In this document: piece after piece, positions 45,908-52,783 of the stretch
How the letters are laid out: every line of letters begins with the position of its first letter
Position numbering within the stretch: position 1 is the stretch's first letter
The notes under the pieces: model-generated
Told to the model about the DNA's origin: nothing
What the model saw: the letters and a program-made list of their open reading frames with translations, nothing else
Database searches by the model: none
Translations under genes and position numbers: made by a program
Virus record (IMG/VR): IMGVR_UViG_3300032006_002789
Coordinates: 1-62,887 of that record
DNA from: a virus
Direction: 5' to 3' (one strand)
Length of the DNA: 62,887 bases

Positions 45908-48454
45908 ATGGCAAACAAAAAAATATTTTTATCAAAAGACGCGAGTACCTACGATCCAGCAGAAGCAATATTTGGATTTCAGAGCGCTCCCATCAACGAG
46001 TCAACAGTAACCATTATTTCTGCATGCAATAATATATCAGTTACATATATGGCGATTAGCGATGGAGGGTCCCTTGTGTCAACGGACCCCTATGTTGTAA
46101 AGTTTCATAATGGATCAAGCGAAAGCGGCGATGAAGCAGAGGCTGCAAAAGCAGGAGCAAACTTTATGAATGCGATCTTAAGCGGGCCACATGGCCCGCC
46201 GAATGGCGCAGGGCCTCATTACGATTCTTTTATAGTAACTTCAGAGGTTATAAACAAAGGAATTATAGTAGGAAATATTACAGCGGTTAAATTAGTCCAA
46301 AAAAAAGCGGGAGAAGCAGGAAATACGGCTATAGCCTACACGAATGGCTTTCATTTTAATCTCCACGACGACCATAAGCCGTGGGAATTTGTTAGTGGAT
46401 TTGATCACTTAAATCATCGCGGACCAAGAACAAATCCAAATGATTGTCTACCCGAGGCGGCCCAAGCCGAGTGGCCTATGTCCATGAGCTCGGAAGGAGA
46501 TATCCTCTTTTCATTCAAGGCTGGCGGAATAGACCCTACAACAAGTGGGGATTTTGCAACAAAGCATTATGTAGATACTAATGATGACACAATTAAGGTC
46601 AGCCTATTTGCAACGGGGCAACTATTAAATAACCTTATAGAGCAAGAGGGTGCTGATTGGCGAGGGAGCGACAATCACCTCAACGACGTTAAGGCAGACA
46701 AGGTCAGCCTATTCGCAACGGGACAACTTCTCAATCAGTCAATCGTAAGTGAAGCGGCAACTCGCGCCGCCAACGACACGACCCTCATGAATACCAAAGC
46801 GGATAAGGTTAGTTTATTTGCGACAGGGGTAACACTAGCGAACAGCATCAGAAATGAGATGGTGACGAGGGCGTCCGAGGATATAATTTGGAACAATACC
46901 ATACAAGCAAGCCTTTTCGCAACAGGCCAACTCCTGACGAGCACTAAGGCAGACAAGGTCAGCCTGTTCGCAACGGGGCAAACGCTCAATACTAGAGTAA
47001 ATCAAACCAGCATGCAACTTGCCACGATTACGTCTTGGTTAATAGATACGGGGCAAAAATGCTCCATGCAAGCGGAAGAATGTATGGTATCCATTGGGAA
47101 TACAAATACCAATTTAGCTACAACAGGAGAGACAATCTATAACATTTTCCTTAGTGAAGCTGCGACTCGCGCCAGTCAAGATGCGACAATCATGGATCTC
47201 TTTGGAGACGTCTCTTCGGACCTTGAGGATACCAAGGTTAGTTTATTTACTACGGGTCAATTAATGGCCAATAACCTAGCTACGACAGGAGAGACAATCT
47301 ATAACATTTTCCTTAGTGAAGCTGCGACCCGAGCTAGTCAAGATGCGACAATCATGGATCTCTTTGGAGATGTCTCTTCAGACCTTGAGGATACCAAGGT
47401 TAGTTTGTTTGCTACGGGTCAGTTAATGTCTACTGTTACTGCAGTTAGCCTATTTGCAACGGGTCAAGAACTGTACGGATCTATCGTAAATGAAGCGGCA
47501 ACTCGCGCTGCCAACGATGCAACCCTAATGAATACTAAGGCAGACAAGGTCAGCCTATTCGCAACGGGACAAGGCCTCAATCAGTCAATCGTAAGTGAAG
47601 CGGCAACTCGCGCTGCCAACGATGCAACCCTAATGAATACTAAGGCAGACAAGGTCAGCCTATTCGCAACGGGACAAGGCCTCAATCAGTCAATCGTAAG
47701 TGAAGCGGCAACTCGTGCCGCTTACGATGCGACCTTAAGTAATGACGTTATTGAACTGCAGGCTGCCTCTGGATACTATACAAGTCAACACGTAATGACT
47801 TTCGGAGACCAGTCTATAACTGGCCAGAAAAGCTTTGTGGAAGGGGTGGACATGGGGTATCCCCTAAACGTTAAGTTGGGCTCCGCCCTTCATGTTGACG
47901 CAATCAATATAATTGAAACAGCAGACAATCGATTTACTATTGGAGCAGACTATATTGGGGATCAGGACAAAAATAGATTATACATATCCTCTAGGGGCAC
48001 AAATTGGGGAGCAAGAACCCCGCCAGAAGTTGCAGAAAACATTTTATCGATTCAGGCAAACGGCAACGTAGGTATAGGGGTTGCTCGCCCCGTTTATAAA
48101 CTTCAAGTGAATGGACCAGTACACGGAATCGGTTTTGTCAATATGTCGGACGAGAGATATAAGAAAAATATTAATATAATAGATAGCGCATTAGATAAGG
48201 TTACTTCAATAGAAGGGGTAACCTTTAAGTGGGATGCAGACTCCTATCCCTATAATGCACCAGAAGGGGTTCAGTTGGGACTAATAGCTCAACAAGTAGA
48301 AAATTCAGTTCCAGATGTAGTAATTACAGATGAAAATGGAGACAAATCAATTTGTTACGACAGACTAATACCTCTATTAGTCGAAGCAGTGAAAGAACAA
48401 CAGCAAACAATAGAGGACCTCAAGATCGAGGTTGAAGATCTAAAAAATAAGTAA
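45908..48454 (+). CDS. Tail fibre with repeat shaft and Peptidase_S74 intramolecular chaperone (848 aa)
   Basis: N-terminal domain about 1-215 with FATKHYVDTNDDTIKVSLFA, a typical fibre-shaft entry. The shaft (about 230-625) is made of 35-residue units around KADKVSLFATGQ-LNQSIVSEAATRAA and two 54-residue units around NLATTGETIYNIFLSEAATR. The C-terminus (about 738-848) is a Peptidase_S74 chaperone: MSDERYKKNI with the conserved Ser and Lys, then LGLIAQQVENSVPDVV, Y-x-R-L-IPLLVEAVKEQQQ and a terminal coiled coil. In this family the chaperone drives trimer folding and cuts itself off. Some shaft units are nearly identical in DNA, so shaft length may vary. Likely the receptor-binding fibre. Confidence 0.9.
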   Translation: MANKKIFLSKDASTYDPAEAIFGFQSAPINESTVTIISACNNISVTYMAISDGGSLVSTDPYVVKFHNGSSESGDEAEAAKAGANFMNAILSGPHGPPNGAGPHYDSFIVTSEVINKGIIVGNITAVKLVQKKAGEAGNTAIAYTNGFHFNLHDDHKPWEFVSGFDHLNHRGPRTNPNDCLPEAAQAEWPMSMSSEGDILFSFKAGGIDPTTSGDFATKHYVDTNDDTIKVSLFATGQLLNNLIEQEGADWRGSDNHLNDVKADKVSLFATGQLLNQSIVSEAATRAANDTTLMNTKADKVSLFATGVTLANSIRNEMVTRASEDIIWNNTIQASLFATGQLLTSTKADKVSLFATGQTLNTRVNQTSMQLATITSWLIDTGQKCSMQAEECMVSIGNTNTNLATTGETIYNIFLSEAATRASQDATIMDLFGDVSSDLEDTKVSLFTTGQLMANNLATTGETIYNIFLSEAATRASQDATIMDLFGDVSSDLEDTKVSLFATGQLMSTVTAVSLFATGQELYGSIVNEAATRAANDATLMNTKADKVSLFATGQGLNQSIVSEAATRAANDATLMNTKADKVSLFATGQGLNQSIVSEAATRAAYDATLSNDVIELQAASGYYTSQHVMTFGDQSITGQKSFVEGVDMGYPLNVKLGSALHVDAINIIETADNRFTIGADYIGDQDKNRLYISSRGTNWGARTPPEVAENILSIQANGNVGIGVARPVYKLQVNGPVHGIGFVNMSDERYKKNINIIDSALDKVTSIEGVTFKWDADSYPYNAPEGVQLGLIAQQVENSVPDVVITDENGDKSICYDRLIPLLVEAVKEQQQTIEDLKIEVEDLKNK
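46693..47746 (+). repeat. Tandem and dispersed repeats in the fibre shaft
   Basis: A 105-bp unit occurs in direct tandem at 47537-47641 and 47642-47746. A partial copy precedes it, and a diverged copy lies near 46693-46797. A 162-bp unit is repeated at about 47115-47276 and 47277-47438. Both lengths are multiples of three, so gain or loss keeps the frame. There are no spacers between units, so this is not a CRISPR array. Confidence 0.88.
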
Positions 48455-48461
48455 TTTAGAC

Positions 48462-48490
48462 TTGACTTTCTTCTCCCCGTAATGTATTAT
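48462..48490 (+). promoter_or_regulatory. Sigma70-type promoter for the accessory operon
   Basis: TTGACT at 48462-48467, a 17-nt spacer, TATTAT at 48485-48490. The expected transcription start (about 48497) coincides with the ATG of the first gene, so the mRNA may be leaderless. Confidence 0.82.
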
Positions 48491-48496
48491 AGGGGA

Positions 48497-49036
48497 ATGA
48501 AAAATTTGTTGGAGAATACAAAAACCTACTTAGTTGGCCACATGCAATATGTTAGTGGTCGAGACTGGAGAGCAGAAGTTACGGAAAAGCTTAATCCTCT
48601 AGGGGTGACATGCTTTGATCCGTATAATAAACCTTTCATGAAAGATGTTGAAGAAGACGAGGGCACTCGTGAGGAGATGGAGGTCTGGATGAGAACAAAA
48701 CAATATGACAGGGTGACAGAAAGAATGAAGACGGTTCGATCTTATGATTTGAATCTTGTTGACCGCTCAGATTTTATTGTAGCTCATCTAGTTCCAGATG
48801 TTGCTTCTTGGGGTTCCGCAGAAGAGATCGTGACAGCAGTAAGAATGAAGAAGCCAATTTTTGTTAGCATGGAAGGAGGGAAATCAAAAACCCCCCTTTG
48901 GATGTTGGGCATGTTTCCACATAAATATATATACAATAACCTGGACGAGATAGTGGAAATGCTTTATGCCATAGACAATGGAGACAAGCAGATTGACTCG
49001 GACAGATGGAGACTACTAAGAAAGGAGTTCAGATGA
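48497..49036 (+). CDS. Nucleoside 2-deoxyribosyltransferase-like protein (179 aa)
   Basis: Pattern of the N-deoxyribosyltransferase/DUF4406-like family: N-terminal TYLVGHMQY, DWRAEVTEKL, CFDPYN near 39-44, then DLNLVDRSDFIVAHLV near 84-99, and GSAEEIVTAV near 106-115, where the second acidic residue (E109/E110) is the usual catalytic glutamate. The ATG at 48497 is preferred over one at 48482, which lies inside the promoter spacer. It opens an operon of six overlapping genes and overlaps the next by ATGA. Possible roles are base exchange or hydrolysis of deoxynucleosides or nucleotides. The substrate cannot be read from sequence. Confidence 0.8.
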   Translation: MKNLLENTKTYLVGHMQYVSGRDWRAEVTEKLNPLGVTCFDPYNKPFMKDVEEDEGTREEMEVWMRTKQYDRVTERMKTVRSYDLNLVDRSDFIVAHLVPDVASWGSAEEIVTAVRMKKPIFVSMEGGKSKTPLWMLGMFPHKYIYNNLDEIVEMLYAIDNGDKQIDSDRWRLLRKEFR

Positions 49037-49167
49037 TAGAAATATTAGCAGCGCCAGACAAAAGTTACATGGAATTTTTTCCAGGAGATTGGATTGTATT
49101 TGGATTATTAATATCGATTGTATGGGCAATTAAACATGGTTGCGGTTATACTGATGACAATCAATGA
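49033..49167 (+). CDS. Membrane microprotein (44 aa)
   Basis: Begins in the ATGA overlap with the deoxyribosyltransferase-like gene and ends in an ATGA overlap with the GMP reductase gene; this double coupling is the main evidence that it is real. The sequence has one hydrophobic segment (DWIVFGLLISIVWAIKHG, about 19-36) and a short polar tail ending DDNQ. No family recognised. It may anchor or regulate an operon product, but that is a guess. Confidence 0.6.
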   Translation: MIEILAAPDKSYMEFFPGDWIVFGLLISIVWAIKHGCGYTDDNQ

Positions 49168-50150
49168 AAACATTAAAGTATTCTGACATTTGCCTTACCC
49201 CAGCTTATGGGATTTGCGAGTCAAGGTCAGATGTGTCAACATTTGTCACATTCGGGCCTCAACAATTTCGCCTACCCGTAGTTCCAGCAAACATGAAGGC
49301 AGTGATTAGCGAGGACATTGCTCAATGGATGAGCGAGGCTCGTTATTTTTATATCATGCATAGATTTGATATAGATATACTTAAGTTTGTGCAACGAGCA
49401 AATGATGAAGATTGGCAGACAATCTCCATTAGTGTGGGAGTGAAAGATGAAGATCTTAATTTTTTAATCAAAGCAAGCTCACTAAAACTAAGAATAGATT
49501 ATATTACCATCGATATTGCGCATGGACACTCTTCCAACATGAAGAAGGCGATTGAAAAGGTAAGGAGATGCTATCCAAATACATACCTGATCGCAGGGAA
49601 TGTTGCAACGAGAGCAGCGGTAAGCAATCTAAATTCATGGGGAGCGGACTGCGTTAAGGTTGGAATAGGTCAGGGCTCTCCATGCACGACAAAAGATAAA
49701 ACTGGATTTACTATGCCAATGTTTTCTTGCACTATGAACTGCGCCTCTACAGTACAAAGCGGTCCAGATTGGTTTGATAGCTCGGGAGATTATAAAAAAA
49801 TACCAATCATTGCTGACGGAGGAGTTGCTTGTAATGGGGATATAGCAAAGGCATTGGTTGCTGGAGCAAAAATGGTAATGGCAGGAGGATTGTTCGCGAA
49901 ATGCTCAGACAGTCCAGCAGAAACAATTAAAATGGAGGGGCAAGTATATAAAGCCTATTTTGGATCAGCGAGTGAGCAAAATAAAGGCCACAACAACCAC
50001 ATAGAAGGAACCCTTAAGAATCTTTCTTCAAGTGGAATGAGCTATAAAACAAAACTTCTTGAAATAGGACAAGACCTTCAGTCTGCAATTAGCTATGCAG
50101 GAGGAATGAAAATAGAGGATCTAAAAGGGACAAAATATGAGCTCTGTTGA
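49164..50150 (+). CDS. guaC: GMP reductase (IMPDH/GMPR family)
   Basis: 328 aa, full length for the Bacillus-type GMP reductase. Conserved stretches include RSDVSTFVTFG, LPVVPANMKAVI, YFYIMHRF, ISVGVKDED, YITIDIAHGHS, LIAGNVATRAAV, then KVGIGQGSPCTTK with the catalytic cysteine at C174, IIADGGVACNGDIAKAL, MVMAGGLFA and YFGSASEQNKG. There are no CBS domains, which argues against a typical IMP dehydrogenase. The enzyme reduces GMP to IMP with NADPH, linking guanine to adenine nucleotides. It overlaps its neighbours on both sides (4 and 14 nt). Confidence 0.93.
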   Translation: MKTLKYSDICLTPAYGICESRSDVSTFVTFGPQQFRLPVVPANMKAVISEDIAQWMSEARYFYIMHRFDIDILKFVQRANDEDWQTISISVGVKDEDLNFLIKASSLKLRIDYITIDIAHGHSSNMKKAIEKVRRCYPNTYLIAGNVATRAAVSNLNSWGADCVKVGIGQGSPCTTKDKTGFTMPMFSCTMNCASTVQSGPDWFDSSGDYKKIPIIADGGVACNGDIAKALVAGAKMVMAGGLFAKCSDSPAETIKMEGQVYKAYFGSASEQNKGHNNHIEGTLKNLSSSGMSYKTKLLEIGQDLQSAISYAGGMKIEDLKGTKYELC

Positions 50151-50625
50151 TATTGTCTACGCAAATGCCAATCATGAGGATGACATCAAAGAAATGCTCG
50201 GCCTATTTTTTGAGACAGATTTTGCATCAGTATCTTATTTAAATACCCAACACAATGTAGATCAATACTATACACACGTAATCCTCCCACTAATAATGAG
50301 AGGGGACCCTGTTCTTCTTGCCATAAAAGACGGGGAAGCAGTAGGGCTTAACTGTTTAAGCACAGAGTTGAACGAGCATTACGACTTAAAATACAAGACC
50401 ATACATGGAATCATGACATTTATAAAAGAGGGATACAGGCGAAAAGGAATAGCCATGAGCATGAAGCAGTATTTATTTAAATGGGTCAAAAGAATGGGGT
50501 ACGAACGAGCGATAGGAGAGTGGGTTGGAGATAATGTTGCGAGCCATGCCCATTCAGATGCAGCAGTAAAAGAGTTTAATGCAACCATAGATAGAAAGTC
50601 AACACAATATGTCGTTAAGTTGTAA
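50137..50625 (+). CDS. GNAT-family N-acetyltransferase (162 aa)
   Basis: The central motif A reads GIMTFIKEGYRRKGIAMSMK, with the R-x-K-G-I-A acetyl-CoA pyrophosphate loop, preceded by beta strands (VLLAIKDGEAVGLNCLS) and followed by IGEWVGDNVASHAHSD. It starts inside the end of guaC (14-nt overlap) and overlaps the next gene by 17 nt. The substrate is unknown: protein, antibiotic or small metabolite are all possible. Next to a citrate-synthase-like gene, it is the second likely acyl-CoA user in the operon. Confidence 0.82.
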   Translation: MSSVDIVYANANHEDDIKEMLGLFFETDFASVSYLNTQHNVDQYYTHVILPLIMRGDPVLLAIKDGEAVGLNCLSTELNEHYDLKYKTIHGIMTFIKEGYRRKGIAMSMKQYLFKWVKRMGYERAIGEWVGDNVASHAHSDAAVKEFNATIDRKSTQYVVKL

Positions 50626-51265
50626 TAGTTTTTTTTCTGAAGTTTATAAAGATCTTACAGGAAATGATTCAAACAAAAATATAGATCATTTTTTAAATGA
50701 GCTATGCAAACTTTTTGTTCGATTTGAAGCGAACGATGTAGAGCCTCCAAGCTCTTGTGTTTTAGCGATGACAGCGAATTGCGGCGCCACATTTGCGCAG
50801 TCCGCATCCTCTGCATTAAACTGCGTGACAGATAAGCACTTGTTGTTTTCCCGTATTTCAGACTTTATCGAGGACAATTGGAAGAAAGACCCCAAGCTTG
50901 TTGCAGAGACTTCTCGAATAAAAGGCAAGAAAATTCCAGGCTTTGGACACCCTTCAATAAAGGGAGAGGACGAAAGAGTTTTAAAAATTATTTCACTTGC
51001 CAAGGAACTAAAATTTGATTGCCCAAGACTTTTGTTTGTCGAGCAATTAAGTTTAGAATTAAAACCTTATCTTAACGTAGGGGGCGCAACATCAGCGGCA
51101 CTCTTGGATTTAGGATTCAACAGGGACAATGTTGTTTATTTTCCCATCATCTCTCGCATGTTTGGGTGGCTCAAAATATATCTTGCCCTAGATAAACAAA
51201 AAGACTCACTACTTCCATCAGATATTTTCATTGAAAAATACAAAGAAATATTCAGTAAAAAGTAA
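50609..51265 (+). CDS. Citrate synthase / citryl-CoA lyase-like protein (218 aa)
   Basis: Family signatures: NDVEPPSS near 42-49, a possible equivalent of the first active-site His at H77 (TDKHLLF), KIPGFGHPSIKGEDERV at 108-124 with H114 and R123, then LNVGGATSAALLDLGF and FPIISRMFGWLKIYL at 178-192 with R183. This follows the C-terminal order of citrate synthases and citryl-CoA lyases. It is half the length of citrate synthase (about 370-440 aa) and nearer to lyase-type domains. The usual catalytic Asp in the N-x-D segment is Gly here (N156-V-G158-G), so ordinary synthase chemistry is doubtful. It overlaps the genes before and after. Confidence 0.75.
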   Translation: MSLSCNSFFSEVYKDLTGNDSNKNIDHFLNELCKLFVRFEANDVEPPSSCVLAMTANCGATFAQSASSALNCVTDKHLLFSRISDFIEDNWKKDPKLVAETSRIKGKKIPGFGHPSIKGEDERVLKIISLAKELKFDCPRLLFVEQLSLELKPYLNVGGATSAALLDLGFNRDNVVYFPIISRMFGWLKIYLALDKQKDSLLPSDIFIEKYKEIFSKK

Positions 51266-52001
51266 TTTACTCACGCTCTTTCAAAATGAAGAGCTTCAAT
51301 ATTTTTTAGGCTCAAGAGATAGACTTAAAGAATCCTCAACATGTCTGACGGGCTGGGGAGTTGACTATAATAAAAGTGAAGTAACTTCCCTTAAGGTTTA
51401 TCATAAGATTTTTGATAAAGACCTCAGAAATATTTCCTTTTTTACTCGGTGGTTTTTTAAGGATTTTATACATGGGAGAGACGTGCTCAACTCCAGCATT
51501 CATAATGCAAGCAAATCGCTTTTAACCTCAAAAGGCGGGCTTGGAGGAATTAATTTTGCAATAAAGGTCCCCTTTTACTCAAAGCCAACTAAGGCATTCT
51601 ATATTAAACAAAAAAAAGGAGAGGTTAAAGTAATAAATTTTAAGAAAGGCCCTCTTGAACAAAGAAAATATAATTATTTATTTAATAAAATACTCATAAA
51701 GCTTTTAGCTTGGAGGTATGACTTAAATCTTCCTGACACTCAACACGGAATAGAATATTCCATAAGAGAGGGGAAGCTCTTTGCGTCGGTTTACCCAAAC
51801 TATAAGCTGCAAAAAGATTCTCTTTTTAGTTTTCTACAGGACATTTATTGGCAACTATCTCAGCATGACCCGTGGCCGATAGAAAATGAAATTGTAAAAG
51901 CAATAGCCAGCATGTTTCCCCCAAACATCCCAATAACAAAAGGGTATATCTCTGGAGACAATGAAAGAAAAATATTTTTTGGCGCAATAGAGGATGTTTA
52001 A
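51231..52001 (+). CDS. Unrecognised protein with four beta-hairpin repeats (256 aa)
   Basis: Last gene of the operon. The only start available near the upstream gene is TTG at 51231 (35-nt overlap). I do not recognise the family. Four segments share a G-x-hydrophobic-x-[YF] strand, a turn, then a strand: TGWGVDYNKSEVTSLKVYHK (about 40-59), GGINFAIKV with KAFYIKQ (about 104-128), HGIEYSIREGKLFASVY (about 172-188) and KGYISGDNERKIFFGAI (about 237-253). They alternate with helical segments. This beta-beta-alpha-alpha rhythm resembles ABBA-type aromatic prenyltransferases, but no motif proves it. Linkage to GNAT, citrate-synthase-like and GMP-reductase genes suggests a metabolic role. Confidence 0.65.
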   Translation: MKNTKKYSVKSNLLTLFQNEELQYFLGSRDRLKESSTCLTGWGVDYNKSEVTSLKVYHKIFDKDLRNISFFTRWFFKDFIHGRDVLNSSIHNASKSLLTSKGGLGGINFAIKVPFYSKPTKAFYIKQKKGEVKVINFKKGPLEQRKYNYLFNKILIKLLAWRYDLNLPDTQHGIEYSIREGKLFASVYPNYKLQKDSLFSFLQDIYWQLSQHDPWPIENEIVKAIASMFPPNIPITKGYISGDNERKIFFGAIEDV

Positions 52002-52465: not shown

Positions 52466-52783
52466 ATGTCAGAAACAAATACAGAAAAACAAAACGAATG
52501 GAAGAGCAGAGAGCTTGGAGCCCTTTGGATTAAAGAGGGTCGCAATCAAAAGTTCCTCTCTGGCCATGTAACACTAGAAGACATGCCTGGAGTAACCAGT
52601 AAGGTTAAGGTTGTTGTGTTCTCGAACAAAGGGAAGACTGAAAATGAGCGCGCGCCAGATTATGTAATCTATCGTTCCGTTGATTTGGATTCGGCAGAAT
52701 CTACTGAAACCTCAGCATCAACCGAAGCTTCTACAGAGACGACGGAGGCTTCTGATGAGGAAATTCCAGCATCTCTAGTGTAA
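52466..52783 (+). CDS. Small conserved phage protein, DUF736-like (105 aa)
   Basis: N-terminal half reads ELGALWIKEGRNQKFLSGHV, then KVKVVVFSNKGKTENERAPD and YVIYRSVD. This GALW...SG...PDYxIY pattern is typical of small phage and plasmid proteins of the DUF736 kind. The C-terminal third is a low-complexity Ser/Thr/Glu/Ala tail. The function of the family is not established; single-stranded nucleic-acid binding has been suggested by fold, but nothing here shows it. Directly upstream of the tmRNA. Confidence 0.75.
   Translation: MSETNTEKQNEWKSRELGALWIKEGRNQKFLSGHVTLEDMPGVTSKVKVVVFSNKGKTENERAPDYVIYRSVDLDSAESTETSASTEASTETTEASDEEIPASLV

Follow-up and report, generated by a model that had tools for sequence, protein, structure and literature searches.

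Two separable modules, one of them an exchangeable cassette with a predicted PT-barrel protein, make up a conserved six-gene phage array

Introduction

The window analysed here, a stretch of 62,887 bases that forms an IMG/VR virus record, carries six ORFs that overlap by exactly 4, 4, 14, 17 and 35 nt and that follow immediately on a tail-fibre gene whose product has an S74 chaperone domain. The initial annotation described these six overlapping genes and took their packing to imply one pathway or complex, with an acylated nucleotide or base as a possible product. Does the array encode a single pathway, or do genes of separate purpose share one transcript? All ORFs and overlaps were confirmed, and the comparison with related loci reported below shows that the six-gene finding is real, partly more interesting than had been supposed, and less unified: the array consists of two modules, not one pathway.

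Results

The array and its promoter

The features of the locus are as follows (all on the plus strand).

45908..48454 (+): tail fibre with S74 endosialidase chaperone, upstream context outside the cassette (PF13884 1.2e-13; PHROG tail-fibre families)
48462..48490 (+): sigma70-type promoter, TTGACT-17-TATTAT; 6 nt separate the end of the -10 from the conserved NDT ATG
48497..49036 (+): nucleoside 2'-deoxyribosyltransferase-like gene (NDT; PF15891 2.2e-7; ORF also open from 48482)
49033..49167 (+): membrane microprotein of family F13, 44 aa, with one hydrophobic segment and a conserved motif (listed ORF start 49006, conserved start 49033)
49164..50150 (+): GMP reductase (GuaC, Bacillus type; PF00478 1.9e-54; PDB 1ypf 3.8e-76)
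50137..50625 (+): GNAT acyltransferase, trio gene 1 (PF00583 9.6e-7)
50609..51265 (+): degenerate citryl-CoA-lyase-like (CS-like) protein, trio gene 2 (PDB 6hxp profile match 4.7e-10)
51231..52001 (+): last gene, trio gene 3, for a protein predicted to be PT-barrel (ABBA) prenyltransferase-like (AF2 model and Foldseek)
52466..52783 (+): family F2 neighbour, downstream context, right border of the variable slot (66 F2 copies in the neighbourhood table)

The single sigma70-type promoter that had been proposed for the array recurs at homologous positions in its relatives: TTGA(C/A)N-(16-18)-TAnnnT lies just 5' of NDT in 73 of 82 loci, with a spacer of 17 in 58 of 59 distinct sequences and, in the most frequent arrangement, 6 nt between the end of the -10 and the NDT ATG. 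Since homologues begin with MxNLL and the ATG at 48482 falls within the promoter, a start at 48482 was ruled out and NDT was assigned to the ATG at 48497. The -10 thus ends about 6 nt before the start codon, and the NDT mRNA is therefore predicted to be leaderless. Of the 59 distinct sequences, about 39% have an inverted repeat that covers the promoter region and that is equalled in no more than 5% of shuffles; its arms vary among phages (CCTTACC..GGTAAGG in L009, for example), and around the -10 it is a candidate operator. At the other end of the array, TTG (51231) is the sole start open to the last gene. The tail fibre upstream contains many VSLFATGQ-type repeats, its S74 chaperone domain being C-terminal.

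Domain searches assigned neither the microprotein nor the last protein to a family, and no PADLOC defence-system model matched any of the six proteins, so that a known anti-phage defence system was dropped as a reading.

NDT and GMP reductase

NDT-like enzymes move or hydrolyse (deoxy)ribosyl-base bonds. The NDT-like gene is the most conserved of the array (79-88% identity to the retained homologues) and is highly conserved within this phage group. Its product scores 31.6 bits against a cut-off of 30 for PF15891 and 22.8, below the cut-off of 28.8, for PF05014; it contains a GSAEE motif, which corresponds to the family's catalytic Glu motif, and its AF2 model is poor (pLDDT 49.6). In INPHARED, a distant relative of NDT (29% identity) occurs in one record only, L098 (LR756511.1), a 595 kb uncultured phage. 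Another family, F31, combines APS-kinase-like and cytidylyltransferase-like parts (L047 4786-5595, minus strand), is a possible NMN adenylyltransferase, and has 15 copies near NDT.

GMP reductase converts GMP to IMP. The array's version has an IMPDH/GMPR domain with the catalytic Cys and Glu present, C174 and E281 being conserved in the alignment with the GMP reductase 1ypf, and its NCBIfam score of 335 bits is slightly below the cut-off of 344. An IMG/VR scan with it as a single protein found nothing.

Distribution of the array genes

From the 154 relatives that an NDT alignment retrieved in IMG/VR, the best 80 were retained; 75 loci, window included, had enough downstream sequence to be counted. 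Some may be copies of one phage, and the counts, cut at the best 80 of 154 and drawn from related phages, describe a sample and not independent events. The carriers are uncultured, mostly large phages, apparently marine. The loci fall into the following types.

NDT without other tested families: 24/75
NDT-GMP reductase: 11/75
NDT and microprotein only: 6/75
Microprotein-GMP reductase: 4/75
NDT and F57 only: 2/75
Alternative gene F46: 8/75 (5 with GMP reductase, 3 without)
GNAT without CS: 4/75
Microprotein-GMP reductase-trio: 8/75
Microprotein-trio: 4/75
Extended, trio with F72, F73 and F57: 4/75

The order of all six genes, microprotein included, is repeated in 11 other sampled loci, with F72, F73 and F57 added in 4 of them; because it recurs in this way, the order is not due to chance. 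In 16 of the 75 loci the CS-like and last genes occur together, and in the other 59 both are missing; neither is ever found without the other (Fisher 1.2e-16, with the kinship of the loci ignored). With GNAT they make up a strict trio. The microprotein and GMP reductase, by contrast with this trio, are common optional neighbours of NDT: GMP reductase accompanies NDT without the trio in 23 loci, and the trio lacks GMP reductase in 4 countable loci, plus 3 ended early by the contig end. On the NDT tree, which has weak support, the trio label requires at least 8 changes.

Mere physical packing, with the CS-like and last genes always apart from guaC and the deoxyribosyltransferase, is not what the scans show. 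The window's CS-like protein retrieved four diverged contigs in which the whole gene order is kept, and two scans with CS alignments gave 11 and 18 loci; NDT adjoins every CS-like locus of the three scans (18/18 in the largest), and GMP reductase is present in 12 of the 16 countable CS loci. Two last-gene alleles used as seeds led back to the same trio contigs alone, apart from one contig that ends inside the gene, and over whole records the last gene occurs once per trio phage and nowhere else. The IMG/VR scan with the window's last protein alone found nothing, as did tblastn of INPHARED with the CS-like and last proteins and a search of bacterial genomes with the CS alignment. The search turned up no phage system already described with this set, in agreement with the initial annotation.

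One contig of this phage group, L097 (JAQBUS010000001.1), is placed in a Proteobacteria MAG, with a stated coverage of 0.13. It is nearly identical to L006, carries DnaE-like and ClpA/C-like genes by inspection, and probably belongs to a virus and was mis-binned. The phylum of the genome that holds L097 was covered by 398 genomes; in these the last-protein profile found nothing, a weak result without a positive control, and the CS profile found only ordinary citryl-CoA-lyase or citrate-synthase relatives.

The trio is exchanged as a unit

The swap of the trio is seen in pairs of related phages. L030 and L062 share 85-88% DNA identity to the left and to the right of a slot that runs from the stop of the microprotein through the following gene, and that holds one gene (F46) in L030 and the trio in L062. 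L031 has about 43 bases where L024 carries about 1,923, an empty slot versus the trio. Both swaps are gene-exact between flanks that are 77-88% identical, and these pairs make the cassette a defined, testable unit.

Exchange also takes place within the cassette. L062 and L064 are 100% identical in NDT and 90% in CS, while GNAT drops to 49% and the last protein to 30%; for L003 and L049 the values are 98% (NDT), 83% (GMP reductase), 81% (GNAT), 87% (CS) and 29% (last). L024 and L064 agree in the last gene (86%) and differ in GNAT (35%). Alleles of GNAT and of the last gene are thus swapped within the cassette while CS is retained, as expected if GNAT and the PT-barrel protein set specificity.

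The alternative gene F46 (~174 aa) lies downstream of NDT in L030, L036, L082, L026, L040, L042, L046, L056 and L058 and replaces the trio in the same slot; it appears GNAT-like by eye, and the one member scanned had no Pfam match. In L038, L039, L043 and L052, GNAT is followed by a DUF2784-type membrane protein (F80), which replaces the CS-like and last genes. Elsewhere, phage contigs carry a full-length DUF1501 protein of family F40 (L027 2713-3993; PF07394 2e-111).

GNAT and the CS-like protein

The GNAT assignment is straightforward (PF00583 29.5 bits, gathering score 20.7), and 19 of 20 homologues match the family. The CS-like protein matches PF00285 (8.5e-7) and the NCBIfam citryl-CoA lyase model (2.7e-11), the latter at 43 bits against a cut-off of 212, and in the PDB its profile finds ATP-citrate lyase besides the citryl-CoA lyase 6hxp. 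Alignment with bacterial relatives confirms the homology to citrate synthase and citryl-CoA lyase that had been proposed for this gene, both catalytic His (H77 and H114) being kept, but not the activity, as the catalytic Asp of the NxDG motif is replaced by Gly (G158 in the window) in 16 of 16 phage sequences. Some bacterial CS relatives have Asn or Ser at this position. Because the Asp is lost in all 16 homologues, citrate chemistry is unlikely: synthesis or cleavage of citrate was dropped as the role of the protein, which was not filed as a citryl-CoA lyase. The conservative reading is that it would bind acyl-CoA without Claisen chemistry; Cys72, which is invariant, might, speculatively, be a candidate for other chemistry.

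The last protein is predicted to fold as a PT-barrel

The last protein had been described as a novel beta-hairpin-repeat protein. It is indeed new in sequence, with no match to any prenyltransferase family in Pfam, NCBIfam or PDB profile searches, but its predicted fold is a known one. The AF2 model built from 14 homologues (pLDDT 89.8, pTM 0.87) has ten antiparallel strands in five hairpins with helices between them and outer helices, a predicted barrel, and the best 34 Foldseek matches in the PDB are all ABBA prenyltransferases. The top match is the arginine prenyltransferase DciF (E 7.8e-6, probability 1.00); PagF, PirF, LimF, CymD, NotF, KgpF and others follow. The last protein is therefore predicted with high confidence to fold as a PT-barrel. 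TM-scores are about 0.5, which is typical of a shared fold rather than of close kinship, and the rmsd over the long alignments is large.

ABBA enzymes hold the diphosphate with Lys and Tyr residues on the barrel strands. In the last protein, K55, Y57, K59, Y147, Y149 and K247, on strands 2, 6 and 10, are invariant in 14 of 14 homologues; Y249 is kept in 13 of 14, the window having Phe instead, and D40 is conserved in the other 13 (Thr in the window). The resemblance of these Lys and Tyr residues to the ABBA pattern suggests a candidate diphosphate-binding site. The viral structure library BFVD gave no credible match to the fold, so that by this search the protein is of a type found in no other virus, and a literature text search with limited terms turned up no publication that deals with an ABBA prenyltransferase in a phage.

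The extended cassette

In L009, L010, L012 and L015 the cassette adds a JmjC/cupin-type dioxygenase (F72; PF13621 2.5e-13 in L009), an unassigned protein (F73), and a UPF0489-like protein (F57) that has a DxHxD motif and matches PF12640 (UPF0489) below the cut-off, at 0.0021. In biphenomycin biosynthesis, a UPF0489-family arginase (BipC) and a JmjC ornithine hydroxylase (BipG) act on peptides (PMC12707348). These enzyme types, together with the structural matches of the last protein to peptide prenyltransferases, would favour a peptide or protein as acceptor. F57 occurs also in two phages without the trio, which weakens its link to the latter. In L029 and L044, where the trio is absent, F57 adjoins a UvdE-family gene.

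Discussion

What the cassette does, with which donor and acceptor and to what end, I infer as follows. Two modules are stacked behind one shared promoter. The NDT-like enzyme and the optional GMP reductase would serve phage nucleotide salvage, whereas GNAT, the CS-like protein and the PT-barrel protein, which occupy the variable slot behind the microprotein as an exchangeable cassette, would carry out acyl/prenyl tailoring. The PT-barrel protein would transfer an isoprenyl group from its diphosphate to an acceptor; as 14 trio records searched contain no isoprenyl-diphosphate synthase, this donor would have to be made by the host. GNAT would transfer an acyl group from CoA to the same acceptor or to a neighbouring one, and the CS-like protein might be an acyl-CoA-binding partner or a non-Claisen acyl-transfer enzyme. 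The acceptor would most likely be a phage or host peptide or protein. Against this reading stand the missing sequence match of the last protein to prenyltransferase families, its TM-scores of about 0.5 with a large rmsd, the Thr that the window has at D40, and an array in which no precursor peptide, protease or transporter was recognised. Taken as a whole, this reading seems to me somewhat more probable than its negation. A bolder version, in which phages own a novel kind of cassette for lipid-tailed peptides or proteins, both prenylated and acylated, with a viral PT-barrel branch, exchangeable specificity alleles and possibly the microprotein as substrate, can be put forward only tentatively, and I consider it doubtful.

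A single pathway from NDT to the last gene, leading to an acylated or prenylated nucleotide or base, would account for the one promoter, the translational overlaps and the NDT gene beside every CS-like locus found. What the initial annotation saw as one system is indeed a conserved transcriptional array, but the trio is separable from NDT and GMP reductase: it swaps independently of them, 4 countable trio loci have no GMP reductase, and 59 NDT loci have no trio. Since the modules are separable and the trio is replaced as a unit by an unrelated gene in near-identical phages, the acylated nucleotide or base has no specific support and was dropped; one pathway of this kind is very unlikely. Rather unlikely, too, is a cassette that modifies a surface structure or virion protein, changing the host receptor or the tail fibre. 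Most trio loci lie directly 3' of tail-fibre-type genes and the cassette alleles turn over fast, both of which would fit, but many fibre-adjacent loci have no trio, and in L030 and L061 the upstream fibres are 93% identical while the cassettes differ. The cassette therefore does not simply follow the fibre, and dedicated tail-fibre modification was set aside as first choice.

The microprotein could itself be the peptide that is modified, by GNAT, the PT-barrel protein and, where present, the JmjC and UPF0489 enzymes, to give a lipidated membrane peptide in the manner of a RiPP. It is the only small conserved ORF within the array, with the motif SYFEFFxGDF...KKKDDDFY conserved in 23 distinct homologues, and it is present in 16 of 16 trio loci and in all 28 counted loci with GNAT, F46 or a trio gene, none of which occurs in the 37 loci devoid of it; moreover, the nearest structural relatives of the last protein are peptide prenyltransferases. 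However, the microprotein is found in 10 loci without any of these enzymes, its presence follows phage relatedness so that the count is not one of independent cases, and neither a leader/core division nor a protease is seen; no precursor peptide, protease or transporter was recognised in the array. I regard this route as unlikely. Doubt may also be cast on prenyl transfer as such, the PT-barrel protein being perhaps a fold relative that serves the GNAT/CS-like pair as a CoA- or nucleotide-diphosphate-binding partner. Its want of sequence homology to prenyltransferases is consistent with this, as are two neighbours that are both expected to use CoA thioesters; yet the matching PT-barrel proteins listed are prenyltransferases, and few residues are as well conserved as the Lys and Tyr on the barrel strands, and I would give such a role a low, though not negligible, probability. 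If the last protein is active as the tailoring reading has it, enzymes of isoprenoid transfer are carried by phages and exchanged among them; this would open up a kind of chemistry new to phages, and the cassette would offer small new prenyltransferases.

Comparison with known systems

Phage GMP reductases have been described, and gp120 of Bacillus phage G is about 45% identical to the window's enzyme; unlike these, the window's CS-like and last genes have no relatives in any INPHARED record. The CS-like protein resembles citryl-CoA lyase and the CS module of ATP-citrate lyase in its GFGHP motif, both His and an Arg, and differs from them in its length of 218 aa, the Gly in place of Asp, the invariant C72 and an EPPSS motif. 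The biphenomycin RiPP cluster (PMC12707348) has enzyme types related to those that stand side by side in four phages, the relation being one at the Pfam or fold level, and on the phage side without a proven precursor. The best structural matches of all are the cyanobactin F-family prenyltransferases (PagF, PirF, LimF, KgpF, AutF/AgcF, DciF). Unlike them, the last protein has no sequence match, is 256 aa long and is phage-borne beside GNAT and CS-like genes, and no protease, cyclase or precursor of the kind found in cyanobactin clusters was recognised in the phage array; the predicted five-hairpin PT-barrel and the outer helices are what it has in common with this family, and the Lys/Tyr-rich strands would be a further resemblance.
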